Origin: Siphonodentalium dalli
Lineage: Eukaryota > Mollusca > Scaphopoda > Gadilida > Siphonodentaliidae
Length of the DNA stretch: 64,000 nucleotides
Direction: 5' to 3'
Assembly: GCA_032622095.1 (NCBI GenBank)
Contig: CP136069.1
Coordinates: 204,460,690-204,524,689, forward strand
Below the pieces are notes generated by a model. It worked only from the letters and a program-made list of their open reading frames with translations. It did not search any database and had not been told where the DNA came from. Positions 23,886-60,918 of the stretch are shown in pieces. How positions within the stretch are numbered: position 1 is the first letter of the stretch; the number at the start of each line of letters is the position of its first letter. Position numbers and translations under genes: made by a program.

Positions 23886-24056
23886 ATCTGTATCAGATCA
23901 CGATGGCGTACGCGTACTGGAAGAGCGGCAAGAAAGATGATCATGCCGTTTTCGACCTTTACTTCCGCAAGAACCCATTCAAGGGAGAGTATACACTATT
24001 TGCCGGGTTAGAGGAATGCGTCAAATTTCTTCAGGACTTTCATTTCTCTGATAGCG
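23886..24056 (+). CDS. NAPRT: NAPRT exon 1 of those visible
   Basis: The acceptor TTATTTTCAG and donor GCG|GTAAGT give 171 bases. It starts in phase 1, so the missing upstream exon must supply one base (G to make Asp of DLYQ). It encodes [22 protein letters not shown] and ending [14 protein letters not shown] contributes the tyrosine that stacks on the nicotinate ring in this family. The reading frame also stays open for ~700 bases upstream through the minisatellite, but the acceptor and the loss of homology place the border here. Confidence 0.96.
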
Positions 24057-27000: not shown

Positions 27001-30000
27001 CCCATTAATTAAAAATTGCGAGTGCATATGGGTGCGAGAGCAATCGCTCCGATCTCCTGGGAATGTCTGTTGGTCTTTTTATCAGATGTTCTGGAAAAAT
27101 ACTTGATATTGATAAATATTACTAAATTATTCTTTCATGTCTTTTCTTTCAGATCTCGCCTATCTTCAGAAGGTCCTGCCTCCAGGAACAGACGCAGGAT
27201 TCTTTGAATATCTTCGACAAATCGACACGAAATGTGTGAAGCTGTATGCTATCGATGAGGGCACTATTGTGTTTCCTAAGATTCCACTGCTGACTATAGA
27301 AGGTCCCATTCCTGTCGTGCAGTTAATGGAAACATCACTGCTAAATCTAGTCAATTACGCTAGGTAAGCTCATCAGCCCCCACCCCCTGATTATAGAAGG
27401 GCCCATACCTGTCGTGCAGTTAATGGAGACCATCACTGCTAAATCTAGTCAATTACGCTAGGTAAGCTCATCAGCCCCCACCCATTTCCAAGTGATGGGC
27501 ATTAGGGATGTGGTTGAGGGGGGTATCCACATTGAAATTTCAAATGGCTCATCTGACCCCTCCCAACCACTTAATCATCCCCCCACCTTTGAACCAGACC
27601 AAAATCTCAGGTTTACAGAATTATATTTACACTACACTCCTTGTGTTGGAACTTTCCAATTGGTACCTCCAGCTTTCCAACCTGGCTGCCTCAGCCCTAT
27701 GGTTGGAAAAATTCCAACTGATGGCCATTTCAGACAAAAATTAGAAACATATGCTACTTTTTGGACTAAAATCTAGATAATCCGCACTAATTACTGCTTG
27801 GAAAATCAAATAATAGGAATAATTTAATTTCAACTTATATGTGGTGTAAAATATACAACTAAAATGTTGTATTTAAGCATGAAATTTTCAACTGTTGAAA
27901 AATTTTACCGAAGTTGAGGGGTGGGGAAGGTGTGAGACACCCCCGCCTAGCCCTGATTGTCATTCCATTCCAGTACTAGGTTTGTAGAAATTACTACTAG
28001 TGTAGCAGCCAGGTTGGTCAACACTTATCTTTTCAGCATGAATTAATTGCGTGCAAGCTCAGATTAAATTTGTTTTCAATCGACTGACATGCACTTATGT
28101 AACCTGTCTGACATTTTTAGCTCACCTGAGACGAAGTCTCCGGTGGAGCTATAGTCATCACTCCTCGTCCGTCCATCCATCCGTCTGTCAACAATTCTTT
28201 GAACATCTTCTCCTCTGGAACCGTAAGACCAAATGGGTTCATATTTGTTGTGGATGTTCCCTTGGTGACTTTCATTCAGATTTGTTTAAATGAGGTCACT
28301 GGGTCAAATAGTTGCGAAACCAGGGCCATAACTCTATTCCTCCATAGTAATTCTTAGAACGACTTCTTTTCCAGAACTATAAGGCCGAAAGGGTTCATAT
28401 TTTGTGTGGATGTTCCCTAGGGGACTCACATTCAGATTTGTTCAAATTGGGTCACTGGGTCAAACAGTTGCGAAGCCAGGGCCATAACTCTTTCCCTCCA
28501 TAGTGATTCTTTTAAACATCTTCTCAAATACCATCAGGCCAAATGGGTTCATATTTGGTATGAAGGATCCTTGGGTGACTGGGGTTCAGATTTGTTCAAA
28601 TGAGGTCACTGGGTAAAATGTGGGCAGGGACATAACTCCAAAAAATATTTAAAAAATATTTTTTGTTATTAAACTCCATGGTCAATTATATATATATAAA
28701 TAGGGTGGGACCAGGGACATAACTGTAACTCAAATTTATTCAGATGGGGTCACCAGGTTGAATAGGGTGGGACCAGGGACATAACTGTATGTCTCTATAG
28801 AAATTCTTAAAATGTCTTCTCAAGAGAGGTTGGACTATTTAGCTTACATATAGGGGCCAAGCGAAGGACAGTTTCCCTCTTAATATGATTCCTCCAAAAG
28901 GACCCATCAGGTCTATTTTACTGATATTTAGTATGAAGGGTTATTTGTTGTCTGGGATTCAAATTTATTCAGATGGGGTCACCAGGTTAAATAGGGTGGG
29001 ACCAGGGACATAACTATATATCTCTATAGTAATTCTTAAAATGTCTTCTTAAGAGAGGTTGGACTATTTAGCTTTCATATACTTGGAGGATCCTTTAGTG
29101 ACTGAGATTCAGATTTGTTAACATGAGGTCAACATGTTAAGAAATGACGGGGCTATGGGGAGTTTAATAACACTTTTGTGTCTAATAAAATCATTGAAAT
29201 ACCAAATTCATTAAATCATCTACCTTGGACCTACCTGACTGATTAATTTGACATACATGTATGGTGTTTTGGGTCCATGGATAATTTGGCTTCAAACATG
29301 TCTAAATGGTTTAATAAAAAGGTGCTTGTGAGATTGGAAATTTCAAACAATTGAGAAAGTTTGAGATGTCGGTTGTGAAATTCCAAATTAAGACTTGGGA
29401 GTCTGGAGGGGACTTGTTGAGCTTGAGGAGGGGGTGATCAGTAGTGTATAGTTGGTAATTTCAAGGTGGATATTCACCCATCTACATACATGAAGCCTCT
29501 CTAGCCACATATCCTGTTTAGATCTACTTCTTTTAAAGTTATTATGAAAAGTTCTGACTGTTGTGGTCTCCAGAGTCCCAGTCTTTGCAGTCTGGTTAGC
29601 GACACCCCACAGTCATTGACTCTTGTTTTATGAAAATTTTTGTAACTTTGGGGGAAAAAAATCGGTAATTTCCATAATTGGCCTATATGACGAAAACAAT
29701 CATTCAGTATTATTTTTCTTATGCAGAAATCACAGTACCATCTTGTTTGATTTTATTTTAGTAATTTTCCAGTCCTTGTTACAAAACAAGTTTATCATTT
29801 AACTTTACTGACATGGTAGTGTAGTTTTTGTTTCTTGTTATATTATGCGAAAATTGGAATATTTTAACATTTCATTACATATTGTGTTTGACAAAATGAC
29901 ATTTTATTTTTATTTTCTGAGTTTATTGCCCACGATAAGGTTGCCAAATAAACTAGTGACCCTATTCCTGACAAATAACCCACACAAATACTGGTCGATT

Positions 30001-33000: not shown

Positions 33001-36000
33001 GGTAAAATTTCTGGATATATTTTAGCCAACGCAGCACCCACCATGAAAGGGTTAAGTAACATTATATAAGTATTAAATAATATTAATATTAAGTATCATA
33101 TTTTATACTTCAGTCTTGTAGCCACAAACTCTGTAAGATTCAGGTTAGCTGCCGGAGCTGATAAAACGTTACTGGAGTTTGGGCTTCGTCGAGCTCAGGG
33201 TCCCGATGGAGGATTGTCAGCATCCCGATACTGTTACCTCGGAGGTAAACTTCATGTTTATTATTGATACTGTTAGCTCGGAGGTAAACTTTATGTTTAT
33301 TATCAATACTGTTACCTCGGAGGTAAACTTCATGTTATCAATGTTCACAAACAATTGATTTAGATATGCTTAACAAGTTATTCAAACTTTCCTGAACTAA
33401 TTTTCCACTCACCAGGTTTTTATAGTGCCTTGATATACGGTTTTAATAACTATCTGTGATATAAAATATGATCAAAATTCTATAATTCATCACCATTTTA
33501 AATGTCTGTGTCTCAGGTGCCCATAGAAAATAGCTGAAATCATTGAAACATTTCTCCCGTCTTGCTACCAGAATGCAACAGAATTCATACTAAGATATAG
33601 AGTTATTACCCTTCCTTTGAAAATAATAGATTTTGCAGTATAGTCCAGATGAAACTTAAGCACAGAAAACACTTCGGTACCTCAACAAAAACAACATGTT
33701 CTCAGTTTATTACACTGGATAAGTTAATAATACAATGTTTTGGAGCTTCTTTTTTCAAATGGTATATAATATGGCATATATTTTATATAGTGTGATCTGG
33801 GGGTTCGAAAATTAAGTGGGCCTTTAATGGCCTTAAATCTATTTCAATGCATAAAATTTATTTACCATGTACCGGTATATATATATATATGAATATATGA
33901 AACACATTTCTGAAATTGTGACATAATTTTACATGAGGATGTACCGGTCCATGTAAAATTATGTCGCAATTTCAGAAATGTGTTTTATATATATATATAT
34001 ATACCGGTACATGGTAAATAAATTTTATGCATTGAAATAGATTTAAGGCCATTAAAAGCCCACTTAATTTTCGAACCCCCAGATCACATATATAAAATAT
34101 ATGCAATATTATATACCATTTGAAAAAGGAAGCTCCAAAACATTGTATTATCAAATTTTTGTCAGTTCTGCATACACCAGCAATATGAGTTGATACCAAT
34201 TGATGGTGAAGCATTTAAGCCTGTGTTCTCATTGATACATTGCATATACCCTCGGTAAAATTCAACATTTTATGGGGTTTTCCATAGCCGTGTGGTCCAC
34301 ATGTATTATGTCATGGACAACATCATCGCATTGAGAGCTAGATTAAGTGGGCATAGTTTTGGGTTAGCCCGAAAATTCACTTTTGCAAACAATATTCGGA
34401 TTTCTTCATTAGGGATGTAAATGCCATCCAAAAAAGGTGTGAACTCGGTCGAAAAACGATGTAAATGTTAAAAGGTTTGAACTCGGTCGAAAAACGATGT
34501 AAATGTTAAAAGGTGTGAACTCGGTCGAAAAATGATGTAAATGTTAAAAGGTGTGAACTCGGTCGAAAAACGATGTAAATGTTAAAAGGTGTGAACTCGG
34601 TCGAAAAACGATGTAAATGTTAAAAGGTGTGAAGTCGGTCGAAAAACGATGTAAATGTTAAAAGGTGTGAACTCGGTCGAAAAACGATGTAAATGTTAAA
34701 AGGTGTGAACTCGGTGTGAACTCGGTGTGAACTCGGTCGAAAAACGATGAAAATTACTAATATGCCTCTAATGATGTACCATCTAATTTATAATTCTTTT
34801 GAAAGTCGATTTCTTATGATTCTTATCTAACCATTAAAAATTTCATAGTTTCATTCTCATTGTTGCCACGTATGATTTGTCAGGTCTTTTATGTGGGATA
34901 TTGATCATTAAGTATTGAATATATATGTTATCTGGCCAAGATTTTAATAATTAATGGGTTTTTTCCTCATTAAACTCAGGTTTTGATGACACCAGCATTT
35001 AACAGGTTTTGATGGGTATCTTTGTGAGTCGATCTGATAATTCACGCATTCTATACTAAATACTCATTGATGAGTAGTTCCCTTAGGAAATGTTCAGATA
35101 ATAGGTTCAACCAAAACCATGAACATAGGAACCCTTCTGCACCAGTATTATCTTTTTGACTGTTTGTAATCTGCTCATTTTTTCTGAATACCCTTCCAAA
35201 TAAATAATGCAACATTCCAATGTATACTTTTATAACTGAATGGGAGAATCCATTTATTAAAGAAAGGGTTATTAGCAGGCCTCATAATATGGTGATGGAC
35301 ATGTGCAGAATGAGGTCCCAGAGGCTAAATTTAGTGACTCTACCCCGCACAGTGGGCTACCATAATTAAATTCACCCTCAGGGCACCTCGTTCTGCTTAG
35401 GCCTCATCTTCTCTGGAACGTATCTTTTTTGTAAAATTAACAAGTTATTTAGTTTCTTTTGTAAACTTCTCATTTGGTTAGTTTCTCTATATCCCCAAAT
35501 TGGCAGACGACACAATGCATAATCGGGGTGCCCCATGGGTGCACATCACCATCTGGGAACCTAAATCAACCTAAAGCAGATAAGGCCATGCAGAATGAGG
35601 TCCCCAGAAGAATTTGATGATTCCAGCTTGAACAGCGGGCTAGCATCACTAAATTCACCCTCTGAGGACCTCATTCTGAAAATGTCCAGCACCATATTTT
35701 GAGGCCTGGTTAATAGCTGTTTTTCTGTCATGTTTCGATGGCACCAGTAATGTGTTGGGGTCGGGATTACAACATTTCAGTGATAATTAATAGCTTTTTT
35801 TCTGTCAGGTTTCAATGGCACGAGTAACCTGTTGGGGAGCAAGCCTTGAAATAGGGTGTCTGTCATTTTCAGAATGAGGTCCCCAGAGGGTGAATTTAGT
35901 GATGCACTAAATTCACCCTCTGGGGACCTCATTCTGCAAATGACAGACACACTATTTCAAGGCTTGTTGGGGAGGGGTGGAGGGTTACGACATTTCAGTG

Positions 36001-39000
36001 ATAATTAATAGCTGTTTTTCTTTCAGGTTTTGATGGCACCAGTAACGTGTTGGCAGGGAAGCTTTACGGCATTCCAGTGCGAGGCACTCATGCGCACGCC
36101 TTTGTGACATCATTCTCTGATCTGGATGACATCACGCTCAGAGTATGTACATTATGAAACGTATTCGAAGTTCAGTTATGGATTAAATAAGGTGTATCTC
36201 TTCCAAGCCACAATTACAACAACAACATAATTTTTATAAAACTACAAATACCTTTTTAGCTCAACTTTACTTTGTAAAGTTTGAGCTATTGCTATTGCCA
36301 TGGCTTGGTATCCGGTCGTCCGTGTGTGCGTGCATGCGTATGTGTGTGAGACGTCAACAATTTCCTTTAGCATAGGCTACAGGTCGTACCTTTGGTCGGA
36401 TCATTATGAAATTTGTTATAGCTGTTGACATTGACATGTAGATGGGAACCAGTCATTTTGGGGTCATTTGGCAAAAAAACATGACTGCCAGCAGCCATCT
36501 TGGATTGTACTCTTTGCATGACTAAATCCTCTGGCATGGGCTACAGGTCATACTTTTAGTCAGATCATCATGACATTTGTCATGGATGTTAACATTGATA
36601 TGTAGATGGGAGCGAGTAATTTTGGGGTCATTCGTACATAAAACATGGCCGCTGGTAGCCATCTTGGATTTTACTTTATATATAACTAAATCCTTTGGCT
36701 TGGGCTACAGGTCGTACCTTTGGTCGGATCATCATGAAATTTGTAATGGCTGTTAACATTGAAATGTAGATGGGAACGAGTCAGTTTGGGGTCATTCGGC
36801 CATAAAATATGTCTGCTGGCAGTCATCTTGTATTTTACTCTTTGCATGGCTAAATCCTTTGGCATACCCTTCAGTCCACTTCCCTCATCCGATCATCACC
36901 AAACTTCATATTAATATTGATATTGATCTACTAGATTGAAGCTATCAAATGTTTTTGAATTTCATTGGAAAACATAGCCGCCAGTAACCATCTTGGACTT
37001 TACACATGAAATTATCCCCTTTGCAAGTTGAGCTACAGTGTCATTGACACTTTCATTCTGTGAATAAAACACAGACAAAACTGAAGATGTTAATATGGGA
37101 AGAGAATGCATTGGCACACTCATTTAATCTGATATAAAAATTACAGTGTGCTACTAGTATACCTACCCTACTGGACAAAACAAGTGTCCACCGGCTAACT
37201 ACAGTTGGGCCGCGGTGTACTTGCCGTTCGGCCATGGTGTAGTTGCCTCGGTGTACGTTCATTAAACTGAAAAAAGACGATACAAACCAGAAATCTAACC
37301 ACAGTGCACGTACTTGCTGTTCAACTGCATTGTACTTGCCGTTCGGCCGCGGTGCTCAACTGCAGTTACAAACTCTGACACTGCGGCCGAACGGCAAATA
37401 CACTGCGGTGCCAATGGACACTTGTTTTGTCCAGAAGGGTATATGACAGGGATTACCAATAATGTTCTAATGCCCCTGCCTATTCACAATTTGTATTGTT
37501 GTCTATAAATTGACACCTCTCCATTATAACATGTGATCCTAAATTACCTTCAGTGCCTTTCAATTGTTCTGGAGTTAAAAATATTAAATACCATTTTTAT
37601 GCCCCCATCCCAAAAGATGGGGAGTATACTGGATTACATGCGTCTGTCTGTCCGTTCGTCTGTCTGTCTCTGTCCATGTTTACATCTGACATTTACAGGC
37701 ATGTTGTCAACTTTAGGAAAAATTAATAGTTATGTGGCTAGTTTCCATTACTTGGCTAACCACGTAACAGCATTGAGATGAACCCTCAAAAATTATCTAT
37801 TGGTCCAATCATCATATTTAATTTTGTAGTCATTCAAAAGTTGGAAATAAAAAGTCCATAGATTTAGACATCCATGATCTGTCAATAGGAGGTGTTCGGA
37901 CAGTCTTGTGGCTAGTCACCCAATCATGGACCTGTCAGTTTCTCCTATTCAACTGTCCTAGTTGCTGTATACAAGTGTTTGAGTTTCAATCAGCTACTTA
38001 TGCTATAATTCATACATGTTCTGACTACAGGAATTTTATCACTATAAACTTTTTGAGAGTCACATAACTCAATAGCCACATATATCCCCAAATTAGAGAT
38101 GGGCGGTACTCGGTATTTACCGTGCGGTATCGGTATCAGCGTAATACCAATTTACTGTACCAAATCAAAACTAAAAATACTGAATTTTCGGTATTGAAAT
38201 TATCCATGTGTTGCCAACTTGTGTGTCTTCGTATTGAGTAAAGTTTCTCAGTAAACAGTTTTGATTCGGTACTTTAATTATACACATCCATCAGACCATC
38301 ACAAAGAACCCGACTGGTAAAAAGCATCCACTTGATAAGAACTCAGCCGACTGTGACCTGTTATCAGTTTGACAGGCCTTGTAAGCGAGCAAAAGGAATA
38401 CACACTCAGATGGCTGACCTAGTTACGGGCCTAACAATCAATGCAGTTGAATAGATACACACTACACAGTGTATCAAAGAAGCTGTGCTGTAACATATTG
38501 CTACATCATGATTGTAACGTCAATGCCACACTGACTGTCCTATGTAATACTCAGGCGGTGGCAGTCCGTATAGCACGTGGCTTTGGCAACTTCAAAGACA
38601 CCGACAATGCAAGCAGCATAAACAGAAATAAGGTCCGAATTCATTTATACAGTGAATCAGAATCTACTTTCTCTTTCTAAACATAGAACAGATCCATCAA
38701 TTGATTAAATTCTAAGATTTATTTCGCGTTGCGACTATTGATAGGGATTTGTGAATTGTGATCACTAATTACTACTCACAATTATATTCAATCGCGAAAA
38801 TGTGACGAAATTGACACGTACATGTATAGATATTGTATCCATGCAATGATGTAATCTCTTATTCTTTTCAAAAGCGGTGCGACGGCGTGCGTGTAAATCA
38901 TCAAAGAGATGTGTGAATATCACTTAATTGAATAATTGTGTTGGTCATTGTGTTGCCTCATTTAGCTGTTGTCACGAATGTATTAAATCCGTGGGCATAT

Positions 39001-45000: not shown

Positions 45001-48000
45001 TACATCCAGAGAGGAGTGAGGATAGACAGCGGTGATCTTGTATCACTCCTTCAATTACGATTTCATATATCCATTTAATTACAGAACTGGTATTCCTAAC
45101 TTTTGTTGTGTAGCATTGGCACTGTCTGAGCTTGGATACACGCCAAAGGGAGTGAGGATAGACAGTGGTGATCTTGCATATCTCAGTTTACTCGTCCGCG
45201 AAATATTCGTCAAAGTATCAGATCAGTAAGTATTATATTTTGGGGATAACATGGCGAATGTTCTGTGGAAAATTTAGTATATGGATGATGGCAGAGCCGG
45301 TCACTGTTAAGGGGTATTTTCCACAGTATATTCGCCCTGTACCTTTCCGAAATCACTAAACACCAAACTGTTATTCCCATTCTAATTCTCTTCATATTTA
45401 AAACATATCATTCACATGAAATTGGAAACAATATCATTTTAAGATTGTGTACCTCTTCCTAACAAGTTTTATATAGTTTCCAGGGTATTATATAATAAAA
45501 GGGCACCGAAAGAAGATGGTTTTCTTAGAAGGTTGGATTTTTCGAAACAAAGAAAACCGAATCATTCAAAAATTTAAAATTAGAATGGTAAAAAGTTTAC
45601 TTAGTTAAGAAAGGGGAATAACTCGGTGAAAAAATGATTTTTTTCTGTTGTCCAATACATTTTGCATATTAGCAATATTAGGTAACAATTATTGAATATC
45701 CTATTTTCAATTCTCTCCATTCAAAACTGTGAAATAGTAACTTTAATGCTGCACCAGTGCAGCTCCCGTCATGATAGGGTTAAGGTGGTCATGTGATGTG
45801 AAAAATGTTCCACTCACATATATATCTGTTCCTCGTATTTTTGTTTTCAGATTCAAGAAAGAATGGTTTTCCAAACTCTGGATAGTCGCTAGTAATGACA
45901 TCAATGAAGATACAATCCACTCTCTCAATCAACAGGTCAGTCTCGCTCATTTCAATCAGTTATCAAGCAAATAGTGTGTCTGTCGTTTGCAGAATGAGGT
46001 CCCAGAGGTTGAATTTAGTGACGCTATCCTGTAAGGCGAGCTAGCATCACCAAAATTACCCTCTGGGAACCTCAATATGCTTAGGCATCAACTGCTGTGT
46101 GAGACCTAAGATAAGATTGAAGTTCTCCTGTTGAAGTTGGTGATGTTCACCCATTGGTCACCTTGATCATGCATTTTATCTTCTGCAAATTAGGGGATAT
46201 AGAAAGGGAAAAAGTAACTAAAAACAATGTTAATTTGGGACTATAGATACTTCCTGCCTAAGCACAATGAGGTCCCCAGAGGGTGAATTTGGTGATGCTA
46301 TCCCTCTGGGGACCTCATTCTGCAAATGACAAACACAATTCACAGACTTGTACCTACTCCGATAAGTGAAATAACTCATGAATGTATAATATGTAACCCA
46401 CAGGGAGCCTCATACAGAGGGAAGCATCCACTACATAGTGTGGTCTGCTCCAGTCTGTGTGGGGCTCTCTATGGGTTAGACACACTATATCTAGACTTGG
46501 TCAGTAATGTAAGACATCCATCTAAAACCTCACTGATAAAGTTTAATGTTTAACCCGCAGGGAGCCTCACACATATGGAAGCATGCATTACAGAGTGTCG
46601 TCTGCTCCAGTCTGTGTGGGGCTCTCTGTGGGTTAGACACACTATTCGCAGGCTTGAAAGTTGATTTCAATCAGTTTTAGAGATGTAGCATCGCCTCCCA
46701 AACATCACTTACAACAACTCAAATTTGTTACCAGCTACTTTTACATGTATCAGGGTAGGGGGTAATTGTAATCAGTAATCGTAATGTTAATTTGATACTA
46801 TAGATACTTCCCAATAACGAGAATAACATCATCACTGCAGAAATACTTAAACCCAGATTTTATTCTAGTAATCAAGTGGTTACTGATGACTGATCAACAT
46901 CCTGCATCGGCGAATGTCTGAGCATTTTGTTGTAATATCAAGCGTAAACTGGTATCAGTTTCCGATGTGACCATTTCACCACATCAACATCCCGACGCTG
47001 TGCTGGAAAGCATCACTAAATTCACCCTCTGGGGACCTCATTCTGGAAATGACAGACACACTAAACTCAGACTTGGTTGTCAATCATAACGTGTTTTATT
47101 CAATATTTGTTCACCGACCAGCGATATATATCGATGCTAGTGAACCGACCAGCGATGCTAGTGACACCGACCAGCGATGCTAGTGAAAATGAAAAATAAC
47201 GTTAGCAGTTCTCAACCAATCAGACTGCATGAATTAGCGACAAATATTTAACTATTGAATTACAATTAATAACATTCTTTCTAGCATCTGGGAACATCTG
47301 AGGTCAGTGTGCATGCTTTGCTGCGCGTTCATAAATTGCTTCATGCTACTGATAGTGACTGATAGACGAAATTTGTTATAACCAGAATATTTTTCAAATT
47401 CCTGGCAGGGGTGGGGGGGGGGGGGGGGGGAGGGGGGGGGTCGAAAAAAACATTCAGGCATATAAGCTGATTTTTTTCCTTTCGACCCTTGTTCGGACCC
47501 ACCCACCCTTGCGTCCAAATTTTTTCCATTTTCGGCAGTTTTTTCCGACACCCATCCCCCTTTTAACACTAAAACAGAGATTTGCGAGTGGAAATTCACT
47601 GTAAACAGCTGTATATGAATTTCTGTGCATACTATTTGTCATGGATGTTAACATTGACATGTATATAGGAACGAGTTATTTTGGGGTCATTCGGCCAAAA
47701 AAAAACATGGCTGCCAGCGGTCATCTTGGATTTCAAAATTTGCAACAAAATACAACACGATAACTGCCTGCAGTCAGTGTAGTAGTTAGAATTACATTAT
47801 TTCTCTTATTCTAAGGTGTTTTAAGCCAAACTCATTGCAAAAAACAGTCAAAAAACTTGCAGGAAAAATTTGTTTGAGTTGCGGAAAAAATTGTTTGTTG
47901 GTCCCCGGTGGGAAATTTGTATACTTCCGTATATAGCATTGTTAAGGATTGTCGTTTTACATAGATTGTGCTTCACCACTTCACCACTCCCTATTCCTTT

Positions 48001-57000: not shown

Positions 57001-60000
57001 GCTATAAAGATTTTTAGCATCTTTAGTCATATCCAAATGTGCATCTATTATTGAATAATTTATTCGTCCGTTCCATGACAAATAGAAAAACGATGCATTC
57101 GTTGAATTATGAACGTTCTCGATCGTTTAAAAACATGGACGCTAATCGCTATAGCAACGCGAGTCAATTGCACAATTCAACATAATAATTAACGGAAATA
57201 ATGTTTTTTGTATAACACAAAAAACTGTCAACTTATCTTCGATGTGTTCCTTCCGTTAACAAGGGAAAAAGTGGAGAATAACGAGCTGTCGTCGAGTTTA
57301 AATGGACATTGGGAGATGACGTCATCAGAGGTTACCGGTCACAAATCGATATCTGATCACTCTCAGCTTTGAAAGGTGGGTTCCTCGATTTGAATCAAAT
57401 ATTTTTTTTACCCACGAAGCCAAAGAAATTATAATTTGGGAGCTTTAATTCAGATTATAATAGTAATTTGGGAGCGTTAATTCGGATTATAATAGTAATT
57501 TGGGAGTGTTAATTCGGATTATAATAGTAATTTGGGAGTGTTAATTCGGATTATAATAGTAATTTGGGAGTGTTAATTCGGATTATAATAGTAATTTGGG
57601 AGCGTTAATTCGGATTATAATAGTAATTTGGGAGTGTTAATTCGGATTATAATAGTAATTTGGGAGCGTTAATTCGGATTATAATAGTAATTTGGGAGTG
57701 TTAATTCAGATTATGCATCTTTAAATAAGCGGTTTCCAAATTCCAAACAGAAGCGATTACACGGTGTAGGTAGTCCCTCTATATTAATGTCCCTTGATAA
57801 AGTAATTGAAATGTGTCTGGGTAGATATGTCTAGTCTAGTGAGGCGAATTCAGTGGCCCCAGCAGAGACCACTTGACAAGTGCAAATTGTCGGGATTCTG
57901 GCCCGCAAAACCAAATGACATCATGAACCATGTCATGACATCTTCGCTGGTTTTAATTAAGCTAACATATGAAATGGGTCTAAATGAAAAAATATTTAGT
58001 CCTAAATCACACAGGGATTCTTCGGAACTAGCCTGTTTTAATTTCATCTTGTTGTGTCATTGCCGATTCCATGCAATCTTCACACAGTTGCTAACTAGAA
58101 GGTGATAAAATAAAAAAGACTTGATGTCCGCATTCTGATTTTGCCTGACCGTATATAGGAAAAATCATATGATGTCATTCACAATTGGCAGGGTCTGGAA
58201 AATCAGGTGCCAGAACCATTGAGGGACAATCTATGTTTATATGTTAATATGTTTTACTATCCACTCTTCTCCCGATCAGGTGAGCATTCAGATGCCTGTT
58301 CGCTCTAGTTTTGATCGTGATCAACAATTCTTTTTCAGTTAGTTGAAATCAACAAAAAACCAAGAATAAAGTTAAGTGAAGATGTTGAGAAAGTGACAAT
58401 ACCAGGGAAGAAATTAGCTTACAGACTGTATGGTTCCGATGGTAAGTAAAGATACCGGGGTAGAAATTAGCTTACAGACTGTATGGTTCTGATGGTAAGT
58501 GGAGATACCAGGGCAGAAACTAGCTTACAAACTGTACGGTCCGATGGTAAGTAAAGATACTGGGGTAGAAATTAGCTTACAGACCTTACGGGTCCGATGG
58601 TAAGTAAAGATAACAGGGTAGAAATTAGGTTACAGACTGTGCGTGTCTTATGGTAAGTAAAGATACCGGGGTAGAAATTGGCTTACAGACTGTATGGCTG
58701 TATGGATCTGATGGTAAGTAAAAATACCGGAGTAGAAATTATCTCACAGACTGTACAGGTCTTACGCTAAGTAAAGATACCGGACGGACGTCGGACGGGC
58801 GGCGTGTTTTGCTTATAACTCAACCGTTTATTGACGGATTAAAAAATTTGGTGTGTGAGTACATATCCATGCACGTAAGCTGCAGACAAAAAAATCGGGT
58901 TCGTCCGCACATTTATTACAGAGTTATGGCCCTTTGCCATTTTTCACTGATTTTAGGCTTGTTAGCGCAACAACTTCAACAAACGTTATCTGATTCGATT
59001 GAAATTTGGGATATAGGTGTCTCCCAAGAATATCTCGGACGAGTTCGAAAACTGGCCTGGTCCGATAAAATTTGATAGAGTTATGGCCCTTAATTAGTCA
59101 TTTTTCACGAATTTTCAGCTCGTTAGCGCGATAACATCAACAAACGTTATCCGATTTGATTGAAATTTGGTATATAGGTGTCTCCCAAGAATATCTCGGA
59201 TGAGTTCGAAAACCGGCCTGGTCCGATAAAATTTGATAGAGTTATGGTCCTTAATTAGTCATTTTTCACGAATTTTCAGCTCGTTAGCGCGATAACTTCA
59301 ACAAACGTATCCGATTTGATTGAAATTTGGTATATAGGTGTCTCCCAAGAATATCTCGGACGAGTTCGAAAGCCGGCCTGGTCCGATAAAATTTGATAGA
59401 GTTATGGCCCTTAATTAGTCATTTTTCACAAATTTTCAGCTCGTTAGCGCAATAACTTCAACAAACGTTATCCGATTTGATTGAAATTTGGTATATAGGT
59501 GTCTCCCAAGAATACCTCGGTGGAGTTCAAAAACCGGCCAGGTCCGATAAAATTTGATAGAGTTATGGCCCTTAATTAGTCATTTTTTCGCAAATTTTCA
59601 GCTCGTTAGCGCGATAATTTAACAAACATCATCCTATTTGATTGAAATTTTGATATATAGGTGTCTCCCAAGAATACCTCGGACGAGTTAGAAAACCGGC
59701 CCGGTCCGATAAAATTTGATAGAGTTATGGTCCTTAAGTAGTCATTTTGTACGAATTTTGAGCTCGTTAGCGCGATAACTTCAACATACGTCATCCGATT
59801 CAACTAAAATTTGGTATATAAGTGTCTTCCAATAATATCCTGGACGAGTTCGAAAACCAGCCTGGCCCAATAAAATTTGATAGAGTTATGGCCTTTAATT
59901 AGTCATTTTTCGTGAATTTTTAGCTCGTTAGCGCTATAACTTCAACAAACGTCCTCCGATTTGTTTAAAATTTGGAATAGACATACTTGCCAAGAATATT

Positions 60001-60918
60001 TCGGACGAGTTCGAAAACCAGCCTGGCCCGATAAAATTTGATGGAGTTATGGCCCTTAATTAGTAATTTTTCGATTTTACATATTAATTAGTCTACCGAT
60101 ACTGATGCACACCATTTGGCGGTAGCCACCGGCTGTAAGCCACCGAAAACGAGACACAGCATCTCTGATGCCACCTCTTGTTTATTTATGGTATTATTTT
60201 TATTTATTCTACTATTCTAATTCGTTCTCTCAAAGAGGAAATAGAGAGTGATCAATTGGTTCCGAGAATTACGTTAAATAATTCTCGAGAGGCGAGAGAC
60301 ATCGGTAAGATATGAGTGCACATTAGTTTCTTACCTAAACGTGTCTGTTTATTACACTTCTGCATCAATTAGATTCACCCAGAAAAAATGCATAAAAGTC
60401 CCAATATGGAGAAAGATCAACCATCGAAAATTCAGTCTAGGTCAGTAAGCGACGTAACGCCAATGACATGACGAGAAATGACATAATTCACTAGTGACAT
60501 TACCATTTTCAATGAAGGGCATTTTCAATGGAAATCGAGCATAGGAGTGTAATAAAGTATTTTAATAAGTAAATATTATTTGATTTTTTAGGTTCATTGT
60601 TTTAAATTGCCCTTCGTCTTTGATTGTTGAAATTTCCGTTCATAAAAATGTACTTACGCCAGTTTATAGTCCAGTTTTCTAATTTCACAGGTGAAGCATT
60701 GTTAAACGTGATGCATATTTAAACTCCGGGTTTCTAATTTTACAAGAAAGACATTGGTCGCATTAGATGTGATCCGTATTTACACTCAGGCCTTCCAATT
60801 TGACAGTTATACTCTGGTTTTTTATTTGACAGGTAAAGCGTTGGTAGATCTGATGCTCAAACCAGAAGAAACACCACCTCAGCCAAATCAGCGGGTTCTC
60901 TGTCGACACCCGTTCATG
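23886..60918 (+). CDS. NAPRT: NAPRT, nicotinate phosphoribosyltransferase (partial gene, 11 exons)
   Basis: Joins nicotinate and PRPP, with ATP, to form nicotinate mononucleotide: the first step of the cytosolic Preiss-Handler NAD pathway. Eleven exons (1319 coding bases, about 440 residues of a family usually near 540) have consistent phases and GT/AG borders. Family motifs in order: DLYQ and YW near the N-terminus, [43 protein letters not shown] with the histidine that is phosphorylated in the family, [25 protein letters not shown]. The tyrosine, histidine and arginine equivalent to human Tyr21, His213 and Arg318 are all present (23891, 36095, 45155). Not found: the first coding exon (ending ..G before AT CTG TAT) and the C-terminal exons, which should lie beyond 60918. 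Introns are 0.6-7.9 kb and repeat-filled. No frameshift in any exon. Confidence 0.97.
26047..26103. repeat. Short conserved dispersed block, copy 2
   Basis: Partner of 4346-4402: TCGCTATCGCCAAG, TATGGGTTAAACATCTGCCG, GATCGTGATC, CTCTCGTT. Confidence 0.7.
26494..26883 (-). mobile_element. TTAA-ended double-dyad element, reverse copy
   Basis: TTAACCCTTTACCCAACA at left and TGTTGGGTAAAGGGTTAA at right, with both GCATTCTCTTATATATGCGA dyads. The CCATACAAATATGGATATCA body segment is at the right side, so the element is inverted relative to 7429 and 31931. 390 bp. Confidence 0.92.
27153..27363 (+). CDS. NAPRT: NAPRT exon 2
   Basis: Acceptor TTTCTTTCAG, donor CTAG|GTAAGC, 211 bases, phase 1 in and phase 2 out. 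It encodes [20 protein letters not shown], the EGTIVFP turn, [20 protein letters not shown] and YA before the split Ser. This is the inter-domain region and core strand that precedes the SLVATN helix. An extra partial copy of its 3' end follows at 27387-27483. Confidence 0.96.
27387..27483 (+). repeat. Tandem partial copy of exon 2 3' end with second donor
   Basis: A ~97-base copy of 27290-27386 starts directly after the original: CTGATTATAGAAGGGCCCAT to CATCAGCCCCCACCC. It reproduces the last ~74 exonic bases, the donor (GT at 27462-27463) and the first ~22 intronic bases. A one-base insertion (GGAGACC for GGAAAC) breaks the frame. If the first donor were skipped, the reading frame would meet TAA in its GGTAAG at once. 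Confidence 0.93.
27590..27965. repeat. Dispersed repeat family R10, copy 1
   Basis: Shares ordered words with 52290-52660: CCAATTGGTA/CCAACTGGTATCCTA, CCCTATGGTTGGA, CAACTGATGGCCATTTCAG / CAACCAATGGCTATTTCAG, and ATTTTCAACTGTTGAA near the right end. The overlapping 94-codon frame is not a gene. Confidence 0.7.
28117..29160 (+). repeat. Hairpin-led GTCC repeat, type AGCTCACCTGAGACGAAG
   Basis: The hairpin TTAGCTCACCTGAGACG / CTCCGGTGGAGCTA is followed by GTCCGTCCATCCATCCGTC. Tandem bodies of about 170 bases follow, with GGGTTCATATTTGGTATGAA, GAGGTCACTGGGTCAAA and CAGGGCCATAACTC, then a second series (GGTGGGACCAGGGACATAAC). This family is very common in bivalve DNA in my experience. No coding. 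Confidence 0.85.
29161..30197. other. No gene seen in this intron stretch
   Basis: AT-rich sequence with no recognised repeat or frame. Confidence 0.6.
30198..31338. mobile_element. hAT-like element, CAGGCCTGG termini
   Basis: CAGGCCTGG at left and CCAGCCCTG at right, with GGTGTT adjoining both ends (8-bp duplication not exact). Subterminal short palindromes: GGCGGGCTGCCCGCC and AGCCCGCC words at left, GGAGGGCTATAGCCCTCC words at right. The two ends use different palindrome sequences. No transposase. Confidence 0.7.
31339..31930. other. No gene; one short tandem duplication
   Basis: 31774-31830 repeats CCATTGTTTCGAGGACATAT twice. Otherwise unremarkable. Confidence 0.6.
31931..32329 (+). mobile_element. 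TTAA-ended double-dyad element
   Basis: Same termini and two dyads as 7429-7801, 399 bp, same orientation. The spacer between the dyads is a few bases longer (ATTCTTTAACAATTTTTATA). Confidence 0.92.
32383..32992 (+). repeat. 52-base minisatellite, ~12 copies
   Basis: Unit CTGAAGTTAATACCATGTAT, then ATGTAGAGCATGTGGTTATC, then CTGGGCTTTATA. The copies are essentially identical, apart from a first unit missing the CCTGGGCTTT portion. Such homogeneity means recent expansion. Confidence 0.95.
33114..33244 (+). CDS. NAPRT: NAPRT exon 3
   Basis: Acceptor ATACTTCAG, donor GGAG|GTAAAC, 131 bases, phase 2 in, phase 1 out. It encodes [30 protein letters not shown] and [21 protein letters not shown] is the strongest signature of eukaryotic NAPRT and helps form the active-site floor. 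Two extra copies of its donor follow. Confidence 0.97.
33245..33345 (+). repeat. Two extra tandem copies of exon 3 donor junction
   Basis: The 39-base unit GATACTGTTACCTCGGAG then GTAAACTTCATGTTTATTAT recurs, giving further donors at 33284 and 33323. Each copy contains ~17 bases of exon 3 end and ~22 bases of intron start. Use of a later donor would read GGT AAA CTT and then shift through intron sequence. Confidence 0.93.
33415..34200. mobile_element. R7 foldback element, copy 1
   Basis: Contains TATAGTGCCTTGATATACGG at left, then ATACAATGTTTTGGAGCTTC, a long inverted pair (33720-33935 against 33950-34150) through GGGGGTTCGAAAATTAAGTG, and a centre of TGTACCGGTCCATGTAAAAT. Partial copies: 40558-40955, and 42121-42519 with 44858-44950. 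Confidence 0.8.
34434..34742 (+). repeat. 38-base minisatellite, ~8 copies
   Basis: Unit GGTGTGAACTCGGTCGAAAA then ACGATGTAAATGTTAAAA. The last copies collapse to a short GTGTGAACTCG repeat before the array ends. Confidence 0.95.
34950..35025 (+). repeat. Distant partial copies of exon 4 acceptor
   Basis: AATTAATGGGTTTTTTCC...CTCAG|GTTTTGATGACACCAGCA, then AACAG|GTTTTGATGGGTATC. Both repeat the real exon 4 acceptor and first ~15 exonic bases about 1 kb upstream of it. More diverged than the copies at 35710-35840. Confidence 0.7.
35280..35700. repeat. GAGGTCCCCAGAGGGTGAA hairpin family, cluster 4
   Basis: Diverged hairpins at 35296-35400 and 35583-35695 with the family spacer between (CCCCAAATTGGCAGACGACA). 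Confidence 0.8.
35710..36000 (+). repeat. Two tandem copies of exon 4 acceptor and 5' exon
   Basis: Copy a: TAATAGCTGTTTTTCTGTCAT then GTTTCGATGGCACCAGTAAT (acceptor AG lost to AT). Copy b: TAATAGCTTTTTTTCTGTCAG (AG at 35807-35808 intact) then GTTTCAATGGCACGAGTAAC. Each continues through a diverged ~60-base part of exon 4 (compare GGATTACAACATTTCAGTG with real CTTTACGGCATTCCAGTG) into the next AATTAATAGCT tract. Copy b is interrupted by the MITE at 35840-35966. The frame from copy b ends at TGA after [12 protein letters not shown]. Confidence 0.92.
35840..35966. mobile_element. Hairpin MITE with 8-bp target duplication
   Basis: Termini CAAGCCTTGAAATAGGGTGT and ACACTATTTCAAGGCTTG are inverted, and the arms carry GAGGTCCCCAGAGGGTGAA. 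TTGGGGAG flanks both sides (35832-35839 and 35967-35974). This single clean copy defines the true ends of the hairpin family seen throughout the window and places it with hAT-type 8-bp insertions. Confidence 0.95.
36027..36142 (+). CDS. NAPRT: NAPRT exon 4 with catalytic histidine
   Basis: Acceptor TTTCTTTCAG, donor AGA|GTATGT, 116 bases, phase 1 in, phase 0 out. It encodes [20 protein letters not shown], then [10 protein letters not shown] and SDLDDITLR. The second histidine (CAC at 36095-36097) aligns with the residue autophosphorylated by ATP in this family. At least three upstream partial copies of its acceptor exist in the intron. Confidence 0.97.
36257..37058 (+). mobile_element. 165-bp core element, short copy
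   Basis: Hairpin start TTAGCTCAACTTTACTTTGT / AAAGTTTGAGCTATT, GT-rich microsatellite, about four core monomers (GGGCTACAGGTCGTACC, GACATGTAGATGGGAACCAG, GCAGCCATCTTGGATT), and end CAAGTTGAGCTACAGTGTCA. Same family as 14370-17335, with more diverged monomers. Confidence 0.88.
37157..37443. mobile_element. Foldback MITE, GGACAAAACAAGTGTCC termini
   Basis: TATACCTACCCTACTGGACA and TGTCCAGAAGGGTATA enclose arms with AAACAAGTGTCCA and GCCGTTCGGCC words. The interior repeats CTTGCCGTTCGGCC and GGTGTA phrases in both orientations. Confidence 0.82.
37444..38093. other. No gene; hairpin-led GTCC repeat
   Basis: 37597-37700 is TATGCCCCCATCCC / GATGGGGAGTATACTGGA followed by CGTCTGTCTGTCCGTTCG. The rest is unremarkable. 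Confidence 0.65.
38094..39171. mobile_element. hAT-like element with exact 8-bp target duplication
   Basis: Ends TAGAGATGGGCGGTA and TACCGCCCATCTCTA are inverted. CCCCAAAT flanks both sides (38086-38093 and 39172-39179). Subterminal CGGTATCGGTATC and ATACCGATACCGCGG motifs are repeated at both ends. 1078 bp; the 79-codon frame at 38441 shows no transposase motif. Confidence 0.94.
39180..40055. other. Tandem duplication and otherwise featureless intron
   Basis: 39184-39505 is two copies of a ~165-base unit (CTCATATATCTCAACCATGG, GGGCTTTCAAAAGAG, CATTGTTCACATTTTATGTT). A relative occurs near 49880 (CCATGGGTTATCGGATCTGA). The frame at 39706-39921 is unrecognised. Confidence 0.65.
40056..40140 (+). 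CDS. NAPRT: NAPRT exon 5
   Basis: Acceptor TTTTTATTGTAG, 85 bases, phase 0 in and phase 1 out. It encodes [20 protein letters not shown] and QDRLAPAV. This is the variable linker between the histidine loop and the SYALAFP strand, so its low conservation is expected. The end has two overlapping donors (GTAAGTAAGT). Only the second, GT at 40141, gives the phase needed by exon 6. Confidence 0.9.
40160..40955. repeat. Hairpin-family units then R7 fragment in intron 5
   Basis: 40165-40290 and 40470-40560 are GAGGTCCCCAGAGGGTGAA hairpins with the spacer between. 40558-40955 is an R7 fragment (GTGCCTTGATATAATACGG to TTCGAAAATTAAGTTGGCC) that lacks the right arm of the foldback. Confidence 0.82.
41033..41141 (+). 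CDS. NAPRT: NAPRT exon 6
   Basis: Acceptor TATATTTACAG, donor TCAA|GTGAGT, 109 bases, phase 1 in and phase 2 out. It encodes [20 protein letters not shown] and [15 protein letters not shown]. The ALAFP and LIDTYD words are conserved; the latter lies next to the phosphoribosyl-binding barrel strand. Confidence 0.95.
41215..41420. repeat. Dispersed repeat with CTTTAATGTGCACA, copy 1
   Basis: GGTGACTCCAGTAGCGATCT, TTTAATGTGCACAT, GAGGCGTGTACACAGGTCAG, GACAACATACCTGGA and TTGTAATGGGGGT align with 56815-57010. Non-coding. Confidence 0.8.
41455..42030 (-). repeat. Minisatellite built on a tRNA-like A box
   Basis: On the minus strand the unit reads GTCGGTGGCTGAGAGGTGGC then GTACTAGTCTCTC, about 40-57 bases, ~11 copies. 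GGTGGCTGAGAGG resembles a Pol III A box. At the left edge (41480-41560) the sequence extends to GGATCGGGGATAGAAACC, which resembles a B box, so the array may be the amplified head of a tRNA-derived SINE. This is inference; no functional tRNA. Confidence 0.7.
42121..44950. mobile_element. R7 element interrupted by 2.3 kb element
   Basis: The left end ATTAAAGACCCATTTAATTT and right end AAAATTAAGTGGGCCTTTAAT are inverted. The R7 body stops at AAGTTGATA (42519) and resumes at ATACAATGTTTTGGAGC (44858). Joining these gives the uninterrupted text seen at 40848-40863, so the 2.3 kb between is a later insertion. Confidence 0.85.
42520..44855. mobile_element. 2.3 kb element, CAGTCAATTTC termini
   Basis: CAGTCAATTTCAGCATATCG at left (its first 10 bases duplicated in tandem) and GCGAAATTGACTG at right. 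Both subterminal zones carry TATGCAT, GCATAAAATATGCAT and CGGCT words. 43215-43360 holds a two-copy ~59-base tandem repeat (TTCCAGTTTCCCCAGTCAGT). No target duplication can be shown and no transposase is seen. Confidence 0.75.
44957..45084 (+). pseudogene. Broken upstream copy of NAPRT exon 7
   Basis: AATTACAG|AACTGGAATTCC..., GTGAGGATAGACAGCGGTGA and TCTTG repeat the real exon 7, which begins 128 bases later, over about 85 exonic bases, after which similarity fades. An 8-base deletion (CCTATCTTTAGCATTGG for CCTAACTTTTGTTGTGTAGCATTGG, written here in two parts: CCTAACTTTTGTTG + TGTAGCATTGG) shifts the frame. The acceptor AG is intact, but the copy has no donor, so it is not a usable exon by itself. 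Confidence 0.93.
45085..45225 (+). CDS. NAPRT: NAPRT exon 7
   Basis: Acceptor TTTAATTACAG, donor ATCA|GTAAGT, 141 bases, phase 2 in and out. It encodes [31 protein letters not shown] and [11 protein letters not shown]. The arginine of GVRIDSGDL (AGG at 45155-45157) aligns with human Arg318, which contacts the substrate. The upstream neighbour is a degenerate copy of this same exon. Confidence 0.97.
45226..45850. other. NAPRT intron 7, nothing recognised
   Basis: AT-rich, no repeat family from this window seen, no frame of note. Confidence 0.6.
45851..45935 (+). CDS. NAPRT: NAPRT exon 8
   Basis: Acceptor TTGTTTTCAG, donor CAG|GTCAGT, 85 bases, phase 2 in, phase 0 out. It encodes [20 protein letters not shown] and [17 protein letters not shown] matches the conserved barrel strand (IVVSNNIDE in human) and loop. 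Confidence 0.95.
45970..47085. repeat. Hairpin families in intron 8
   Basis: GAGGTCCCCAGAGGGTGAA units at 45970-46080 and 46255-46335 and a half unit at 47008-47070. Another imperfect hairpin family, TAACCCACAGGGAGCCTCA...GTGTGGGGCTCTCTATGGGTTA (split across its loop), occurs at 46394-46482 and 46552-46636 and again at 48541-48625 and 62281-62369. Confidence 0.82.
47098..47770. repeat. Short tandem, G-run and core-element fragment
   Basis: 47110-47185 repeats ACCGACCAGCGATGCTAGTGA. 47408-47440 is a G-run that creates Pro-rich frames on the minus strand. 47630-47745 is one stray monomer of the 165-bp core (GTCATGGATGTTAACATTGA, GGGGTCATTCGGCC). Confidence 0.75.
47771..48161. other. No gene seen
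   Basis: Unremarkable intron sequence. Confidence 0.55.
48162..48302. mobile_element. TA-flanked hairpin MITE, copy 2
   Basis: TACAGTAATGCCCTAATTAA to AGAGCATTACTGTA, 141 bp, the shortest copy of the family at 10704. The central ATTCATCGG segment is absent, so the arms meet at GGACTAAATCC. Confidence 0.9.
48330..48492 (+). repeat. 47-base tandem repeat, three copies
   Basis: AATGTGGCTGAACATGGCTA then TATAATGACCTTGTTGACAG and ATTGTAGT, nearly identical. Confidence 0.93.
48637..48930 (+). mobile_element. TTAA-ended element, internally shortened
   Basis: Same termini and body as 31931-32329, but 294 bp. The first dyad is complete; the second lacks its left arm (GGCACATTCTATGGTCGACTC junction). 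Confidence 0.92.
48931..50386. other. NAPRT intron 8 remainder, no gene
   Basis: CAATCAATCAATCAATC at 48936. 49560-50150 has CACAGCCATGGGTTATCGGA and GAATGAAATTTGGTATGGAG, related to 39370-39410. A two-copy TAACTTTAGTTATAGTTATA tandem (50323-50375) precedes the next exon's acceptor. Confidence 0.6.
50387..50467 (+). CDS. NAPRT: NAPRT exon 9
   Basis: Acceptor TTTGATTTCAG, donor AAG|GTAAGA, 81 bases, phase 0 on both sides, hence skippable without frame loss. It encodes [20 protein letters not shown] and [16 protein letters not shown] is the conserved phosphate-binding loop of the barrel, so skipping would remove part of the active site. Confidence 0.96.
50513..50940 (+). repeat. Dispersed repeat family R4, copy 2
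   Basis: TTAAGGATGCATAATCCGAA to GATTGAGTAGCTTTAAA, collinear with 22243-22645. Confidence 0.85.
50985..51242. repeat. Degraded GGTGAATTTAGTGATG hairpin and flank
   Basis: ATTGAGGTCCTCAAAGGTTG at left and CACTAAATTCACCCTCTTGG at right (50993-51062), most of the loop lost. Confidence 0.7.
51243..51494. mobile_element. TTAA-ended hairpin element, ATGATGGAGC subfamily
   Basis: TTAACCCTTTCATGATGGAG to CTCCAGTCATGGAAGTGTTAA (last four bases TTAA), with two dyads built on CCAGTGCATTCTCTTATATA and CCAATGTATTCTCTTATATA. A better-preserved relative of 6828-7072 and 10423-10640. Confidence 0.88.
51565..51843 (-). repeat. Hairpin-led GTCC repeat, reverse orientation
   Basis: On the minus strand: TTGTCCCCCGACGTTCTG, GGGGGACTATAGCAATGG, CTGTCCGTCCGTCCATCAC, body, and end GTTGTCGGGGGACACTGTGG. 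Confidence 0.78.
51844..52780. other. No gene; R10 repeat copy 2
   Basis: 52290-52660 is collinear with 27590-27965 (see there). 51890-52230 shows nothing recognised. Confidence 0.6.
52781..53036. mobile_element. TA-flanked hairpin MITE, copy 3, extended centre
   Basis: TACAGTAATGCTCTAAGTAA to AGAGCATTACTGTA, 256 bp. The GGAAATATGGCTTGTTGCCA segment of the left arm is present twice in tandem, the right arm once, so the hairpin has a bulge. Confidence 0.9.
53078..53250 (-). repeat. R4 reverse copy, part 1 (before insertion)
   Basis: TAAAGGTACTCAATTCAATC, GTTATTTATCAACATGTTGTTC and CCACTTGATTATTTT are the reverse complement of the right half of R4. The match stops here and resumes at 57345. 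Confidence 0.8.
55649..55723 (-). repeat. tRNA-like segment, probably SINE head
   Basis: The minus strand reads TGTCGCTGTAGCCGAGTGGT then TAGGCCATCGGACTGCAAAC and ends CAGGTATTCAAAA, about 75 nt. TAGCCGAGTGG is a good A box; the B-box-like GGTATTCAAA is poor and no acceptor stem pairs. I read it as tRNA-derived, not a working tRNA gene. Confidence 0.4.
56815..57010. repeat. Dispersed repeat with CTTTAATGTGCACA, copy 2
   Basis: Collinear with 41215-41420. It contains an internal duplication of TTTAATGTGCACACTCAGAG. Confidence 0.8.
57345..57727 (-). repeat. R4 reverse copy, part 2, with amplified terminus
   Basis: GATATCTGATCACTC resumes R4 after the 4.1 kb insertion. From 57428 the R4 end segment (TAATTTGGGAGCGTTAATTC then GGATTATAATAG, ~31 bases) is repeated about ten times, then finishes in ATTATGCATCTTTAAA. 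Single-copy in the other R4 members. Confidence 0.88.
57728..58338. other. NAPRT intron 9 end, no gene
   Basis: Unique-looking. The 99-codon frame at 57806-58105 lacks recognisable features. Confidence 0.55.
58339..58441 (+). CDS. NAPRT: NAPRT exon 10
   Basis: Acceptor TTCTTTTTCAG, donor GATG|GTAAGT, 103 bases, phase 0 in, phase 1 out. It encodes [42 protein letters not shown] and the P-G-K turn match the family (PRMKLTEDPEK in human). The last ~45 bases and donor are the first unit of a tandem array extending to 58781. Confidence 0.97.
58442..58781 (+). repeat. Exon 10 donor junction repeated ~6 more times
   Basis: Unit of ~52-60 bases: GGGTAGAAATTAGCTTACAG, ACTGTATGGTTCTGATG, GTAAGTAAAGATACC. 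Donor-like GGTAAGT recurs at 58495, 58547, 58600, 58653 and 58714; the last copy is GCTAAGT. Each contains ~40 bases of exon 10 3' end plus ~12 of intron. Splicing from any later copy would place TAA (GAT GGT AAG TAA) in frame. Confidence 0.95.
58782..60185 (+). repeat. ~162-bp tandem repeat, about seven units
   Basis: GGACGGACGTCGGACGGGC leads into ATAACTCAACCGTTTATTGA. Units then carry GAGTTATGGCCCTTAATTAG, TCATTTTTCACGAATTTTCA, GCTCGTTAGCGCGATAACTT, GAAATTTGGTATATAGGTGT and CTCCCAAGAATATCTCGGAC. The right end is a hairpin, GGTAGCCACCGGCTGTAAGC and CACCTCTTGTTTATT. The bivalve-type body again has a tandem core close to 160 bases. Confidence 0.88.
60186..60670. other. No gene seen
   Basis: Intron sequence with no recognised element. 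Confidence 0.55.
60672..60832 (+). repeat. Two upstream partial copies of exon 11 acceptor
   Basis: Copy a: TTTCTAATTTCACAG|GTGAAGCATTG then TTAAACGTGATGC (AG 60689-60690). Copy b: TTTCTAATTTTACAAG|AAAGACATTG then GTCGCATTAGATGTGA (AG 60745-60746). The real site is TTTATTTGACAG|GTAAAGCGTTG at 60833, and TTCCAATTTGACAG at 60805 adds a further lone acceptor. Diverged, hence older than the exon 10 array. Confidence 0.78.
60833..60918 (+). CDS. NAPRT: NAPRT exon 11, last visible
   Basis: Acceptor TTATTTGACAG, donor ATG|GTATGT, 86 bases, phase 1 in and phase 0 out. It encodes [20 protein letters not shown] and VLCRHPFM. The EE-PP-P pattern matches the family segment before the C-terminal domain. 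About 80-100 residues should follow; I see no matching exon up to 64000. Confidence 0.95.

Follow-up and report, generated by a model that had tools for sequence, protein, structure and literature searches.

The original report of the repeats known as mirages is said to be that of Canestro in 2002. According to the relevant sections of two amphioxus papers, mirages are minisatellite-like duplications of intron/exon boundaries that leave regular splicing undisturbed (PMC3087553, PMC3902484), and TnC and PGBD5 were added as further cases (PMC3902484). Among the papers listed in our literature search, no description of mirages outside lancelets was recognised. Intron-gain cases (PMC4974935, PMC2891723) and repeats at human exon-intron boundaries (PMC2812944) are, in the sections considered, neighbours of junction copying and not the same thing. 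In the potato RdRp gene, as described in part of that report, a duplication can likewise cross an intron-exon boundary with its splice signals, but it yields a new spliced intron in the coding region, whereas the NAPRT copies described here stay in an existing intron and leave the frame unchanged (PMC4974935). Minisatellite arrays at exon-intron boundaries, a further likeness, are described in sections of a paper on human segmental duplications; there the variable internal tandem repeats belong to recent paralogues, and novel introns and alternative transcripts were reported (PMC2812944).

The DNA analyzed here is a stretch of 64 kb (the window) that contains most of an NAPRT gene. The arrays at its exon borders would, as we read them, be the same phenomenon as the amphioxus mirages, in another genome. 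As in the amphioxus sections consulted, tandem units straddle a donor or an acceptor, the true border is intact, several loci are affected, unit length is variable (10-160 bp in amphioxus), and many units hold copied splice signals; identity was 81-100% in one amphioxus globin case, and the NAPRT copies range similarly. Units containing both exon and intron sequence across the junction occur at 8/26 NAPRT junctions and 27/365 junctions of control genes. In NAPRT, 5' and 3' exon boundaries are both affected, with the authentic boundary and the frame intact, and copy number and unit length vary among the arrays. Unlike in amphioxus, the genome here is of 2.23 Gb, 8 of the 26 junctions of one gene are involved, the case is known from sequence alone, and the rate was measured over 365 junctions and set against introns. 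The initial annotation of this DNA had supposed such recurrence to be undescribed; the amphioxus mirages, as far as the sections consulted go, had already been reported.

Eleven NAPRT exons were found in the window on the plus strand (A-K, exons 1-11 of the initial annotation), all bounded by AG and GT. Spliced together, they form a single open frame of 439 aa, and the translation matched human NAPRT (4yub) with E=1.4e-136; over these first 11 exons the alignment has gaps of a few residues only. Because exon A begins at human residue 20, at least one more exon probably lies upstream of it. The exon count is greater than eleven, since two further exons (L and M) lie directly downstream, in a 7.3-kb piece cut past the window (L199). 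The 13 exons read as a single frame and are separated by introns of 0.6-7.9 kb:

23886..24056, plus strand: exon A, with a junction copy at neither end
27153..27363, plus strand: exon B (exon 2 of the initial annotation), AG/GT, in frame, human-aligned; true donor at 27363|27364
33114..33244, plus strand: exon C (exon 3), AG/GT, in frame, human-aligned
36027..36142, plus strand: exon D (exon 4), AG/GT, in frame, human-aligned
40056-40140, plus strand: exon E, without a junction copy
41033-41141, plus strand: exon F, without a junction copy
45085..45225, plus strand: exon G (exon 7), AG/GT, in frame, human-aligned
45851-45935, plus strand: exon H, without a junction-spanning copy
50387-50467, plus strand: exon I, without a junction-spanning copy
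58339..58441, plus strand: exon J (exon 10), AG/GT, in frame, human-aligned
60833..60918, plus strand: exon K (exon 11), AG/GT, in frame, human-aligned
L199 562-633, downstream of the window: exon L
L199 1880-1987, downstream of the window: exon M

By junction-anchored self-comparison, a junction was considered copied when a match spanned it by at least 8 bp on each side and lay within 300 bp. Six of the 22 window junctions had an extra copy (donors B, C and J; acceptors D, G and K), with spanning scores of 33-168; the remaining 16 scored at most 13 or were without a spanning match. In all six cases the copy is intronic and leaves the true exon uninterrupted. This agrees with the claim of the initial annotation that six of eleven exons have intronic junction copies, donor-side at exons 2, 3 and 10 and acceptor-side at exons 4, 7 and 11. 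The repeats are as follows:

27290..27483, plus strand: exon B donor array, two copies of a 98-bp unit (TRF 94%; score 106, offset 98)
33226..33336, plus strand: exon C donor array, 2.8 copies of a 39-bp unit (TRF 90%; score 112, offset 39)
35710..36056, plus strand: exon D acceptor array, the true acceptor region and two upstream copies (score 104, offset 218)
35840..35966, no strand assigned: foldback element in the exon D array, 127 bp, with 62-bp arms (97%)
44948..45043, plus strand: exon G acceptor copy, diverged, covering the acceptor and most of exon G (score 50, offset 128)
58399..58783, plus strand: exon J donor array, about seven copies of a 53-bp unit (TRF; score 168)
60664..60714, plus strand: exon K acceptor copy, old, 76%, AG intact (score 33, offset 142)

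The exon B copy is the freshest (TRF 94%): 53 bp across the junction are identical, and the copied donor GT at 27462 has the same surrounding sequence as the true donor. The exon C array holds two copied donors with intact GT, and identity over the aligned stretches is 92% and 100%. Copies of the exon D acceptor are 88-92% identical among themselves and are split by the foldback element; the nearer one retains its AG (35807-35808) and the farther one has lost it. A gapped alignment of the exon G copy against 45076-45179 gave 82% over 105 columns. Five copies were measured in the exon J array, with 79-87% identity and GT intact in four. The exon K copy, the weakest of the six, is real: none of 1000 dinucleotide shuffles attained its local score of 39, their maximum being 29.

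Exons L and M also carry donor arrays, the first with 18.6 copies of 34 bp at 91% (L199 619-1252) and the second with 32- and 44-bp units from L199 1963 to about 3895, where there are 47 donor-like motifs including the true donor. With them, NAPRT has copies at 8/26 junctions and 8/13 exons (donors B, C, J, L and M; acceptors D, G and K), and five of these eight junctions sit in TRF tandem arrays. Offsets are 32-142 bp, apart from 218 bp at D, where the insertion is included; the smallest arrays have 2 units and the largest has 47 donor-like motifs. Copies are about 76% to 100% identical, which supports the proposal of the initial annotation that the process was repeated and not a single event. 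The ages it gave do not hold as stated: exon 2 has the freshest copy, exon 3 is at 90% by TRF, the exon 10 copies are not near-identical (79-87%), and exon 11 is at 76%. Each affected NAPRT exon has a spanning copy at one end only, as is not the case in tandem exon duplication, and no new intron or exon was found in the frame of the 13 exons (the first 11 human-aligned), the copies being confined to introns.

Other repeats occur in and around these introns. Pieces like 'gaggtccccagagggtgaattta' recur in the window, by eye, in both orientations. Hairpin elements with 'gccaatgcattctcttatatatgcgag' arms lie in NAPRT introns at 26520-26750, 32080-32300 and 48780-48900, and also in several control loci. 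The 164-bp tandem arrays at 14457-17071 and 36363-36865, whose unit matches several other loci, including L003, L005, L008 and L013, probably represent an internally repetitive dispersed element. A perfect array of eleven 52-bp units (32419-32992) lies upstream of exon C and stops about 120 bp short of its acceptor; the unit had no match in any other fetched locus. At 929-1137 of L198 (G000:C3:72015500-72017600) there is a dispersed copy of exon I that includes flanking intron and both splice sites (91% over 209 columns), between two 103-bp direct repeats that are 98% identical (829-931, 1136-1238). This exon I copy has a single 26-bp unit, perhaps the pre-duplication state of the same unit duplicated at window 50322-50377.

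The control set, drawn from this assembly of 2.23 Gb in 9 contigs, comprised 197 exons of eight Pfam families in two samples, with 365 junctions; these were placed approximately, from the splice-site scores around the ends of matches in hand-picked rows and not by RNA. A spanning copy within 300 bp was present at 27/365 junctions (7.4%; 15/222 and 12/143 by sample), in 19 of the 71 gene groups and in many unrelated genes, so that the feature is not peculiar to the NAPRT locus. The densest were one gene each of MCM (3/5 junctions), RPB2 (3/10) and TCP1 (3/13), and a P of 0.04 is suggestive of clustering by gene. In 26 of the 27 cases donor copies lie downstream and acceptor copies upstream, the exception being L021. 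Two RPB2 genes 0.5 Mb apart (G000:C2:30894577-30895227 and C2:31384638-31384969) have the same exon start copied upstream; the extra copies listed are three in one gene and one in the other, and these differing numbers are suggestive of length instability. Our results showed that junction copying is a real, recurrent, genome-wide feature of an already known kind.

Within this genome-wide pattern NAPRT is an extreme case and belongs to the upper tail. When every repeat base is counted, 21.7% of anchors in the gene match and 6/22 is unremarkable (P=0.34). Counting each array once, 1.3-1.7 copied junctions were expected with the NAPRT introns as null (P 0.0015-0.006) and 1.5-2.2 with flanking DNA (P 0.003-0.018), compared with the six found; all of these window tests are post hoc. 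Exons L and M, which lie outside the window and were not selected for junction copies, have 2/4 junctions copied (P=0.03 at the other-gene rate of 27/365), and at that same rate 8 or more of 26 gives P=0.0004. Given how many genes a genome holds, one like NAPRT is expected somewhere.

Tandem duplication is likely to be in excess at junctions, from modestly to strongly, and the size of the excess depends on the null chosen. By raw coverage there is parity: TRF arrays cover 19/365 junctions (5.2%) and 5.4% of intron positions. This null was set aside because long arrays are counted many times. With arrays collapsed to one unit, the junction/intron ratio was 1.63 (CI 1.13-2.16), and 2.36 (1.50-3.36) for strong matches; this null was faulted in turn because its counts include transposon-internal repeats. 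A directional profile per ancestral position, accepting any copy within 300 bp, gave 26/364 junctions (7.1%) and 1053/15719 intron positions 101-340 bp away (6.7%), a ratio of 1.07 (CI 0.66-1.61); spaced and transposon-internal repeats are included in this count. In this profile, 864 of the 1602 deep-intron matches were outside TRF arrays, and the 18 printed ones mostly resemble pieces of dispersed elements.

The restriction to adjacent duplications was adopted after the parity result had already been seen. Counted per ancestral position, adjacent tandem duplications were found at 20/365 junctions (5.5%) and at 296/18594 intron positions 31-360 bp away (1.6%). Their profile is highest at the junction itself (5.5%), declines to 3.8% at 11-30 bp and 1.1-2.5% at 31-360 bp into the intron, and drops into the exon as well. 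With one count per event, junctions had 3-5 times the rate of nearby introns, within a few hundred bp. Near-identical duplications (at least 93%) were 9.1 and 10.3 times as frequent at junctions in the two samples (7/222 vs. 45/12960 and 5/143 vs. 12/3542), with intron matches that come from just 7 flanks; ratios were 0.7 and 1.1 for the middle age class and 1.0 and 4.7 for the old class. TRF events numbered 19 at control junctions, 4.05 being expected, and 4 in NAPRT plus the window, 0.68 being expected (5 with all overlapping TRF rows used, P=0.0007). The adjacent scan of NAPRT gave 4/26 junctions compared with 3.55% in its own introns (P=0.013). In the window introns and upstream flank, adjacent duplications reach 3.4-5.1% (all) and 1.0-1.6% (near-identical), so with these as null the excess falls to about 1.1-1.6 times and 2-3 times, respectively. 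At the TRF density of the window, 9.6 junction arrays would be expected in control genes (3.5 without dispersed units), and 19 were observed. Equal frequency of intronic duplications away from splice sites, which the initial annotation had named as the outcome that would speak against its claim, had a mixed outcome: it holds for coverage (5.2% vs. 5.4%) and for the 1.07 ratio, and the window introns and upstream flank reach 3.4-5.1%, but it does not hold for adjacent events (5.5% vs. 1.6%) or TRF events (19 vs. 4.05).

Several sources of the excess were considered. Ascertainment through weak exons found by means of their copies was not supported, because the excess persists for exons over 50 bits (7/166 vs. 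28/7288). Exonic freezing as a detection bias was not supported either, since in 20 units the exonic part (93.0% identity) and the intronic part (93.9%) diverge alike. Exon methylation was rejected as a cause because CpG content showed no difference between duplicated and other exon edges; CpG o/e is about equal in coding and intron sequence. Duplicated edges were higher in exon-edge TpG+CpA (P=0.005) and intron-edge GC (P=0.019), two of seven uncorrected tests. Where a locus has a junction copy, repeats make up 28.5% of its introns vs. 10.2% in others (P=0.0001), a difference that is partly the arrays' own extent; on the opposite side of the exon the regional density was 12.9% vs. 8.6% (P=0.11). 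As to microhomology, near-perfect arrays have an overhang of 0-7 bp in 13/18, too few to choose a mechanism.

We consider it probable that the arrays are mirage-type repeats, the product of neutral duplication across the genome that is filtered by selection and tolerated through exon definition. Units of about 30-150 bp straddling the exon/intron border would arise as short tandem duplications, continually and genome-wide, when repair or replication slips at short homologies in the ordinary way. Duplications wholly within coding sequence would be purged by selection, and one that straddles the border would leave a complete exon and a spare border in the intron, and so could persist. Persisting arrays would expand or contract like a minisatellite and then decay. 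Exon definition is invoked because the NAPRT introns are long (0.6-7.9 kb); the closest sites would be paired, the exon-proximal site used and the copies ignored, and normal mRNA would presumably be produced as before. As described in part of one study, pairing under exon definition favors the splice sites with the shortest distance across the exon; where two equally strong donors competed, in five minigenes, the exon-closest donor was used exclusively, and for competing acceptors no more than a weakening of the upstream preference was reported (PMC9225289). Acceptor-side copies are therefore less clearly explained by exon definition.

Uniform birth followed by a filter predicts equal rates at junctions and in introns, and with excesses of 3-5 and 9-10 times something more may act. 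Units at junctions were also shorter than those in introns after weighting the latter for spanning. Duplications that take in exon sequence might arise several times as often as those in introns, and some 5-7% of all junctions might be self-copied and largely intact, through a mutational process directed at exons that shows itself at their edges; we consider this less likely than not. Tentatively, exons or exon edges could be a duplication hotspot from which only border-overlapping units survive selection. The adjacent duplications (20/365 vs. 296/18594), the near-identical class in both samples, the TRF events of the controls and of NAPRT plus the window, and the NAPRT adjacent scan all favor this, and weak-exon ascertainment does not explain them; the hotspot is at odds with the equal uncollapsed coverage, the excess that shrinks against window introns and upstream flank, the 9.6 control arrays predicted from window TRF density, the middle age class without excess and the old class at 1.0 and 4.7, the 7 flanks that supply the near-identical intron matches, and the equal CpG content of exon edges. 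That six of 22 junctions fell in repeats by accident in a repeat-rich genome, with no excess at all, seems unlikely to us. The raw anchor rate of 21.7% in NAPRT, the coverage parity and the ratio of 1.07 with spaced and transposon-internal repeats would agree with accident, but more than half of the deep-intron matches behind that ratio lie outside TRF arrays and the printed ones are mostly dispersed-element-like, the next two NAPRT exons beyond the window carry two more arrays, and the event-based counts weaken it further.

Alternatively, selection could maintain the copies, whether as decoys, as spare splice sites or as a source of alternative splicing and new introns, as the initial annotation had in part suggested; this is very improbable. 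Many copied sites are intact (GT/AG in 60/69 copies), and according to the sections consulted there is a documented case in potato of an intron gained through duplication of an intron/exon border (PMC4974935), as well as a model of such gain for amphioxus. However, 57.6 intact dinucleotides are expected from overall identity, close to the number retained, and selection in either direction is not indicated. Moreover, replacing the true sites with copies gave a stop codon in 7/7 tested sites, all in window arrays: the exon B copied donor would add 98 nt and a stop, and the exon C copied donors would add an insert with a length divisible by three that yet contains stop codons. Since all seven bring stops, regular NAPRT mRNA would require that the copy sites go unused, and their use in alternative splicing is not indicated by these translations; the NAPRT frame is also without a visible new intron or exon. 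Assembly error is hardly credible: tandem repeats are prone to misassembly and the analysis rests on one assembly, but many substitutions and small indels separate the copies, the exon D array contains a foldback insertion, and the two RPB2 genes 0.5 Mb apart share extra copies of the same exon start.

As mirage-type repeats, the arrays would extend mirages beyond the lancelet genes of the sections consulted (PMC3087553, PMC3902484), and they would offer numerous intermediate stages to the model that derives new introns from duplicated borders. Should the possible exon-edge excess hold against deep introns as well, a duplication process linked to exons would be indicated. If 5-7% of junctions are self-copied, RNA could show the outcome of near-equal splice-site competition at a very large number of natural sites, and natural junction copies would, if this is true, replace the reliance on a few artificial minigenes.
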